From the NCBI RefSeq assembly GCF_030848565.1, contig NZ_JAVDDV010000008.1:62001-126000 (forward strand): 64,000 bases of DNA, read 5' to 3'. The notes under the pieces were generated by a model. The model saw only the letters and a list, made by a program, of their open reading frames with translations, searched no databases and was not told the origin of the DNA. Origin of the DNA: Natronolimnohabitans sp. A-GB9 (GTDB taxonomy: Archaea > Halobacteriota > Halobacteria > Halobacteriales > Natrialbaceae). Position 1 is the stretch's first letter. Each line of letters begins with the position of its first letter. Shown here piece after piece: positions 20,743 to 23,258 of the stretch. The position numbers and the translations under genes were made by a program.

Positions 20743-21651
20743 ATGGTGCGGAACGTCGCCGGATTACTGCCGGAACTCGAGGACGAAGACTTCTATCTCC
20801 TCTCGGGGGTCGAACAGGGAATGCGCTTCTCCGAGTGGGTCCAACGCGAGAAACTCCCGAAGTTCTCGGACCTGACCGAAGAAGAGGTCGACTACCGCCT
20901 CGAGCGCTGTCTGAAACGCGGATTGATCGAGAAGAAAACGATTCAGTACGAGGGATATACCCTCCAGTTCGAGGGTTACGACGCCCTGGCCCTGCGGACG
21001 CTGGTCCAGCGGGAGACGATCAGCGAGTTCGGCTCGCCGCTTGGCGTCGGCAAGGAAAGTGACGTCTACGAGGTTCGCTCTTACAAACCGCTGGCGCTGA
21101 AATACCACCGCGAGGGGTATACGAACTTCCGGGAGGTACACAAGGAACGCGACTACGCATCGGAAAACGAACACGTCTCCTGGATGTACACCGCCCGGAA
21201 GGCCGCCGAACGGGAACACGACATCTTAGAGACCCTTTATCCCGACGTCTCGGTACCCCAACCGATCGATCAGAACCGCCACGCCATCGTCATGGAGAAG
21301 ATGGACGGCGTCGAACTCTCCCGGACGAGACTCGAGGCCGACCAGGTACTCGGCGTCCTCGATCTGCTCGTCGAGGAGATTGCTAACGCGTACGCAAGCG
21401 GCTACGTCCATGCCGACATGAGCGAGTACAACGTCTTCGTCAACGAAGCGGGCGTGAAGATCTTCGACTGGCCCCAGGCGGTGACGACCGACCACGAGAA
21501 CGCCAGCGAGTTCCTCCGGCGCGATCTGACAAACATCGTCGGCTACTTCCGTCGCAAGTATCCCCAACACGTCCCCGAGGGGATCGACAGTGACGATGTC
21601 GCCGACGCGATCGAAGCCGGAACGTTCGAAAGCGTCGAGGCGGACGTTTAG
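20743..21651 (+). CDS. rio2: RIO2-type serine/threonine protein kinase
   Basis: The 302-residue product is the archaeal RIO2 kinase. The N-terminal winged helix (about 5-85) is followed by the RIO kinase domain with GVGKESDVYE (flexible P-loop), ALKYHREGYTNFREV, the catalytic YVHADMSEYNVFV and the metal-binding IFDWPQAV. RIO2 acts in small ribosomal subunit maturation. The start gives the normal length and carries a TATA box at the right distance. The downstream gap holds palindromic element E. Confidence 0.95.
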   Translation: MVRNVAGLLPELEDEDFYLLSGVEQGMRFSEWVQREKLPKFSDLTEEEVDYRLERCLKRGLIEKKTIQYEGYTLQFEGYDALALRTLVQRETISEFGSPLGVGKESDVYEVRSYKPLALKYHREGYTNFREVHKERDYASENEHVSWMYTARKAAEREHDILETLYPDVSVPQPIDQNRHAIVMEKMDGVELSRTRLEADQVLGVLDLLVEEIANAYASGYVHADMSEYNVFVNEAGVKIFDWPQAVTTDHENASEFLRRDLTNIVGYFRRKYPQHVPEGIDSDDVADAIEAGTFESVEADV

Positions 21652-22454: not shown

Positions 22455-22565
22455 GGTTCGGGGCCGACGACTCCACTCCGAACCGGTCGCTTGCGTGCGA
22501 AGTTCGAAGCCCTTATACTCGAGAGTTGGCTACGCTGTCGTAGACTCGCTGAGTCGCGGGCATCA

Positions 22566-22656
22566 GCGGGCACCTGTTCGGCATCGACGCCACCACAGGT
22601 CGGGATGTGATCCGCGGGGCTTGGCCCCGGTCGGGATTGAACCAGGAAACGCCCGC
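22566..22656 (+). ncRNA. Putative structured leader RNA of L15e
   Basis: The 91-nt region can close on itself. GCGGGC (22566-22571) pairs perfectly with GCCCGC (22651-22656). Inside, ACCTGT (22572-22577) pairs with ACAGGT (22595-22600), enclosing a smaller GGC/GCC hairpin, and CGGGGC pairs with GCCCCG (22615-22629) around a TTG loop. The closing helix ends one base before the Shine-Dalgarno-like AGGTGA of L15e. Most genes here have no such leader, which suggests ribosomal-protein autoregulation; that function is inference. Confidence 0.5.
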
Positions 22657-22662
22657 AGGTGA
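22657..22662 (+). promoter_or_regulatory. Ribosome binding site of L15e
   Basis: AGGTGA, 5 nt before ATG 22668, complements the 3' end of archaeal 16S rRNA. It fixes the start at MAKSF rather than at the upstream in-frame ATG 22659, which lies inside the site. Confidence 0.7.
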
Positions 22663-22667
22663 TTACG

Positions 22668-23258
22668 ATGGCAAAAAGCTTCTACTCCCACATCAAGGAC
22701 GCATGGAAAGACCCCGACGACGGTAAGCTCGGGGAACTGCAGTGGCAGCGAAAACAGGAATGGCGAGACCAGGGCGCAATCGAGCGTATCGAACGCCCGA
22801 CCCGCCTGGACAAGGCGCGTGAGCTCGGCTACAAGGCCAAGCAGGGCATCATCATGACCCGCGTGTCGGTCCGCAAAGGGACCGCGCGAAAGGAACGATT
22901 CACGGCCGGACGCCGTACCAAGCGCCAGGGTGTCAACCGCATCGGGCGGCGCAAGAACATCCAGCGCATCGGCGAGGAGCGCGTCTCCCGGAAGTACCCC
23001 AACCTGCGGGTGCTCAACAGCTACTGGGTCGGAGAAGACGGCAGCCAGAAGTGGTTCGAAGTGATCCTCGTCGATCCGAACCACCCTGCGATCGAGAACG
23101 ACGACGACCTCAACTGGATCTGTGACGACTCCCACCAGAACCGCGCCTTCCGCGGGCTCACCAACGCCGGCAAGGACAACCGCGGTCTGAACAACCGCGG
23201 CAAGGGTGCCGAGAAGGTCCGCCCGTCCAACACCGGCGGCCAGGGTCGCGCGAAGTAA
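22668..23258 (+). CDS. rpl15e: 50S ribosomal protein L15e
   Basis: The 196-residue basic protein matches archaeal/eukaryotic L15e throughout: MAKSFYSHIKDAW, RPTRLDKARELGYKAKQG, RVSVRKGTARKERFTAGR, RIGEERVSRKYPNLRVLNSYWVGEDG and a C-terminal GLTNAGKDNRGLNNRGKG tail. It is a component of the large ribosomal subunit. Its basic composition contrasts with the acidic proteins around it, as expected. The leader shows a possible regulatory structure and a good Shine-Dalgarno site. Confidence 0.97.
   Translation: MAKSFYSHIKDAWKDPDDGKLGELQWQRKQEWRDQGAIERIERPTRLDKARELGYKAKQGIIMTRVSVRKGTARKERFTAGRRTKRQGVNRIGRRKNIQRIGEERVSRKYPNLRVLNSYWVGEDGSQKWFEVILVDPNHPAIENDDDLNWICDDSHQNRAFRGLTNAGKDNRGLNNRGKGAEKVRPSNTGGQGRAK

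Follow-up and report, generated by a model that had tools for sequence, protein, structure and literature searches.

The gene for ribosomal protein eL15 in the window (the whole 64,000-nucleotide stretch of Natronolimnohabitans sp. A-GB9 DNA that was analysed) is preceded by a haloarchaeal form of the RF03144 mRNA leader, in which an H-type pseudoknot is laid around the core of this RNA family. The compared sequences show the helices with their covariation, a constant distance to the ATG, the promoter geometry and a near-universal occurrence in haloarchaea as a single copy. We consider it probable that the leader is autoregulatory, with eL15 as the ligand that would bind at stem P2 of the core, block initiation and so repress translation.

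The eL15 leader and its known core

The presumed regulated gene, rpl15e (22668..23258, with the ATG at 22668; PF00827, E 1.7e-81), lies on the forward strand, as do all leader elements described below. RF03144, the eL15-Euryarchaeota leader, was matched directly upstream of this gene at 22573-22648 with 40.3 bits (gathering cut-off 33.7) and over model positions 1-48 in full, and this copy is the single one in the genome of the window. The window shares with the family the downstream gene and the core, namely P1 and a P2 stem with GG-NAUGU opposite GAA-CC. Eckert and Weinberg (2020) predicted, on the basis of covariation and gene context, that RF03144 is a leader through which eL15 regulates its own synthesis; eL15 was named as the ligand only because it is the sole gene downstream (PMC7247131). 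The Rfam 15 paper added three covarying pairs to the family, whose model still has 48 positions (PMC11701678); no experimental test of the leader was found in the open-access literature. The basic finding of a structured eL15 leader is already known as RF03144, and the architecture beyond the Rfam model is the part added here. Among relatives, eL15 is the only constant neighbour of the leader, the other neighbouring genes being variable. Upstream of eL15, and in its orientation, is a RIO2 kinase gene (20743-21651); 20 of 80 relatives also have one within the 1.5 kb flanks of eL15.

The preliminary description of this DNA had drawn three perfect 6-bp helices before L15e, and all three are present as described: an outer helix, GCGGGC 22566-22571 with GCCCGC 22651-22656, which spans 91 nt; a second, ACCUGU 22572-22577 with ACAGGU 22595-22600; and a third, CGGGGC 22615-22620 with GCCCCG 22624-22629. 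The outer helix indeed adjoins the Shine-Dalgarno (SD) site, since AGGTGA begins at 22657, directly after GCCCGC. Compensatory changes, which were to be looked for in all three, were found in the second helix; the third proved to be a variable extension of a terminal hairpin, and the outer helix lacks them (one double-change cell, 62 of 500 shuffles, 62 leaders). The absence of compensatory changes, which was to count against the proposal, holds for the outer helix in its proposed pairing and not for the whole leader. That description had missed the internal-loop stem 22602-22613/22634-22643, the hairpin at 22547-22568 and the second GCGGGC copy at 22556-22561, which are treated below.

Folding energy was of little help. 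The leader folds no better than chance (z of -0.91, with 39 of 200 shuffled sequences folding at least as well), and it is therefore called structured solely on the basis of its RF03144 membership and of comparison among relatives. Minimum-energy folding, tried as a test of structure, was set aside as uninformative, and it also chooses the wrong outer partner, because the window carries two identical GCGGGC copies.

For the comparison, loci were gathered for 80 named haloarchaeal eL15 genes, 30 from class genomes, 60 further haloarchaeal and 60 non-haloarchaeal ones. Anchored segments served to align the 164 distinct haloarchaeal leaders, and double changes were counted in alignment A1, a MAFFT alignment of 62 full named haloarchaeal leaders. 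A tree-aware scan covered 5460 column pairs against a branch-shuffled all-pairs null; since this null was heavy-tailed, a Pagel-type test was added, in which dependent and independent evolution were compared on an independent eL15 coding tree with 107 taxa.

Crossing helices PA and PB

The two GCGGGC copies of the window, copy 1 (22556-22561) and copy 2 (22566-22571), are 10 nt apart, and both can pair with GCCCGC at 22651-22656, directly before the SD-like element. The covariation falls on copy 1. In alignment A1, the helix formed by copy 1 and GCCCGC, PB, is paired in 97.6% of cells and shows 30 double-change cells, a number reached in 0 of 500 shuffles. Correlated evolution was found for pairs 22556-22656 (LR 38.1, p 1e-7) and 22560-22652 (LR 27.6, p 1.5e-5), and the former ranked third among all column pairs of the tree-aware scan (E about 0.017). 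In relatives, the SD-adjacent strand reads GCCCGC, GCCCGU, GUCCGC, GUCCGU or GCUCGU, and copy 1 tracks it as GCGGGC, ACGGGC, GCGGAC, ACGGAC and ACGAG; copy 2 does not match the changes among the first four of these strands. The outer PB pair is non-standard in about 10% of leaders.

Copy 1 itself lies in the loop of a second covarying hairpin, PA (22547..22568), formed by CGCUGA 22547-22552 and UCAGCG 22563-22568. PA is paired in 97.0% of cells, four of its six pairs have changed on both sides in the 62 leaders, and pair 22550-22565 gave p 1.7e-8 in the correlated-evolution test. Its variants in relatives include CGCUGG/CCAGCG, CGUCGG/CCGACG, CAUCGG/CCGAUG and CACUG/CAGUG, and where G-C is usual the window has the compensated pair A22552-U22563. 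PA and PB are thus two crossing helices, both supported by covariation, and since copy 1 sits in the PA loop and PA crosses PB, the leader is an H-type pseudoknot with the Rfam core, P1 and P2, inside its third loop. Over the whole model, 97.2% of cells are paired in the 62 leaders, and 15 of 24 pairs show double changes (196 cells); the covariation score is 0.388, whereas shuffled alignments gave 0.175 (0/500) and slid versions of the model never exceeded 0.087.

The 48-position Rfam model runs from P1 to before the SD and lacks both PA and PB. The main text of the 2020 paper (PMC7247131) makes no mention of a pseudoknot or of an SD, and priority for the PA/PB pseudoknot over that paper is not certain.

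Pseudoknots at the initiation region of ribosomal protein mRNAs are known from the E. coli rpsO (S15) and alpha-operon (S4) leaders, where they are thought to be stabilised by the protein. The eL15 leader, known from sequence comparison, has a pseudoknot at the same place; the E. coli leaders belong to other proteins and another domain of life and are unrelated in sequence, and, unlike them, the eL15 leader holds a separate two-hairpin core, putatively protein-binding, in the pseudoknot loop. A Halobacteria S15 leader, from Eckert and Weinberg (2020), is likewise a predicted haloarchaeal ribosomal protein leader, with a different gene and ligand.

The second GCGGGC copy and Methanosarcinales-like leaders

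Copy 2, which the preliminary description had chosen as the partner of GCCCGC, shows no correlated evolution with it (pair 22567-22655, LR 0.43, p 0.98, 107 taxa). Its GGGC (22568-22571) is identical in at least 163 of the 164 haloarchaeal leaders, and the whole of GGGCA (22568-22572), just before P1, is nearly invariant and covaries with nothing found. The pseudoknot alone does not account for this invariance, which may reflect a protein contact, a tertiary contact or a partner in an alternative state.

The last possibility leads to a two-state switch, in which the SD-adjacent strand would be shared between copy 1, in the PA and PB pseudoknot, and copy 2, in a closed three-way junction, with eL15 shifting the balance. 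We find it conceivable, if doubtful. Two competing GCGGGC strands do stand in the window, one of them nearly invariant, and in one lineage the 3′ strand changed jointly with both copies; except in that lineage, however, copy 2 fails to track the 3′ strand, and a protein or tertiary contact could explain its invariance equally well. Methanosarcinales-like leaders, which carry two copies of the 3′ strand instead, also speak for a switch. Should it be conserved, one SD-adjacent strand with two upstream copies in haloarchaea might be mirrored in Methanosarcinales by one upstream strand with two downstream copies, eL15 setting the state; this wider version we hold equally doubtful.

The joint change was seen in a Haloquadratum sp. 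MAG (L094), where GGG has turned into GAG in both copies and the 3′ strand into GCUCGU; it is the only lineage in which both pairings changed together. In the Methanosarcinales-like leaders, an upstream GUUUCAU faces two downstream copies of RUGAAAC, so that two mutually exclusive pairings are possible. One RUGAAAC copy comes right after the core; the other stands a few nucleotides short of the start region, in many cases immediately 5′ of AAGGUGA. By visual inspection, about 22 of the 60 non-haloarchaeal leaders have this arrangement, among them L175, L177, L185, L189-L190, L192, L198-L200, L202, L209-L212, L217 and L220. No common closing stem was seen by eye in Methanomicrobiales-like leaders.

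Initiation region, probable protein site and distribution

The pseudoknot sits at the ribosome-binding site: the 3′ end of PB lies 8-12 nt before the ATG in 161 of 164 leaders (median 10). In the window, PB is followed by the SD-like AGGUGAU (22657..22663), a 7-nt match to the complement of the anti-SD. The latter was taken from a relative (G064) whose 16S ends GGATCACCTCC; an anti-SD pattern match in the window's own genome was rejected, as it fell inside a coding region. SD matches of at least 4 nt were found in 124 of 164 leaders and of only 2-3 nt in the other 40, so the SD is not universal. The matches are notable because H. volcanii is reported to lack an SD mechanism at 5′-UTRs (PMC3986360) and leaderless RNAs make up 72% of its transcripts (PMC4983044); the latter figure also bears out, for this species, the earlier premise that most transcripts have no leader. 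From the reported lack of SD use and the 40 leaders with short matches it follows that simple SD masking is not the whole mechanism. Occlusion of the SD by CAUC/GGUG or CACCU/AGGUG pairing is possible in the window and was set aside, since the SD is not universal.

Upstream, a TATA box, TTATAC, is located at 22513..22518, with a predicted transcript start some 28-30 nt downstream, near 22540-22545. Of the 144 leaders scored in haloarchaea, 135 have the first T of a TTWW motif 28-30 nt before a conserved AACTCG. Judged by this spacing, transcripts are predicted to start a few nucleotides before PA.

Under the autoregulatory reading, transcription would start near 22543 and PA would form at the very 5′ end of the RNA; its loop strand GCGGGC would pair with GCCCGC before the SD to give PB, with P1 and P2 enclosed. 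Excess eL15 would bind the internal loop of P2, which looks like a hairpin in domain I of 23S rRNA, and, once bound, would stabilise the pseudoknot and deny the small subunit access to the start region, some 10 nt further downstream. Control of L15e translation by L15e itself, already suggested in the preliminary description, matches the published prediction (PMC7247131) and fits this anatomy, and the interpretation as a whole may be called partly supported. Control that acts on transcription or on the stability of the mRNA, and not on the initiation of translation, seems unlikely: SD-dependent initiation at leaders is said not to occur in haloarchaea, and a hairpin at the mRNA 5′ end could protect the transcript, but the tight spacing of PB to the ATG points to the initiation region.

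The autoregulatory reading places the protein at P2 (22602..22643), the probable protein site. As a stem, P2 is supported by the Rfam alignment and by covariation; it consists of P2a (22602-22603/22642-22643; 100% of cells paired, with double changes), an internal loop of GAUGU (22604-22608) opposite GAA (22639-22641), P2b (22609-22613/22634-22638; 96.0% of cells paired, with double changes) and the terminal hairpin (22615-22620/22624-22629). It is preceded by hairpin P1 of the Rfam alignment (22573-22577/22595-22599, extended by A22572-U22600), in which three of five pairs show double changes in the 62 leaders. The internal loop of the leaders, GG-(A/G)AUGU-GG opposite GAA-CC, resembles a 23S domain I hairpin. 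In the 23S rRNA of a related haloarchaeon (L233), nucleotides about 246-268 form the hairpin CC-GAA-GCC-uucg-GGGC-AAUGU-GG, which has the same loop and flanks with the strand order swapped and is the only such local hairpin in that molecule; no 23S gene was found in the window's own assembly. Eckert and Weinberg (PMC7247131) had noted a partial resemblance, involving a bulged G, at the site of eL15. Mimicry of the 23S hairpin by P2, a likeness noticed post hoc between sequences, is offered as a lead only. That the ligand is another ribosomal or assembly protein appears very unlikely: the published assignment (PMC7247131) was made only from the downstream gene, but eL15 alone is constantly downstream, and in yeast eL15 is a protein of domain I (PMC12825303), the domain of the look-alike hairpin.

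To follow the leader through genomes, a whole-leader covariance model, R1, was built on PA, P1 and P2, with PB left out because some rows of alignment A2 have the loop strand in the wrong place. Of 292 haloarchaeal class genomes, R1 matched 287, once in each apart from G265, the sole listed genome of the class in which it matched twice. With the same filters, RF03144 matched 238 of the 292; it misses about a sixth of haloarchaeal leaders, for example those of G006, G011 and G027 (genus g28), which R1 recovered, and the family model could be extended accordingly. In the wider phylum, the core was present in 205 of 393 sampled genomes, haloarchaea included, and is common in methanogens.

Only a few structured leaders with a regulatory role have been described in archaea, and a study of Haloferax start sites judged control by such leaders untypical of haloarchaea. 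The eL15 leader would illustrate a way of blocking the initiation region in organisms that are said not to depend on SD pairing. The pseudoknot architecture makes the published autoregulation hypothesis directly testable: with a near-universal leader and a fixed 8-12 nt spacing, swaps of the PB strands would be a test of autogenous control in a tractable archaeon.

It is most improbable that the closed three-helix fold, with copy 2 paired to 22651-22656 and no pseudoknot, is the sole functional structure: the pairing is possible in 97.6% of cells, is as stable in the window as PB without PA (-33.0 kcal/mol each), involves the nearly invariant GGGC and has a seeming counterpart, judged by eye, in two basal genomes where a CACGG/CCGUG closing strand flanks the core directly, but it lacks covariation by both tests given above, is incompatible with the strongly covarying PA, and the changes in the 3′ strand are matched by copy 1 and not by copy 2. 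The two genomes (L235 and L236, family f11, possibly basal haloarchaea) have the core and no R1 match, and their CACGG/CCGUG strand near the core may be an older arrangement.
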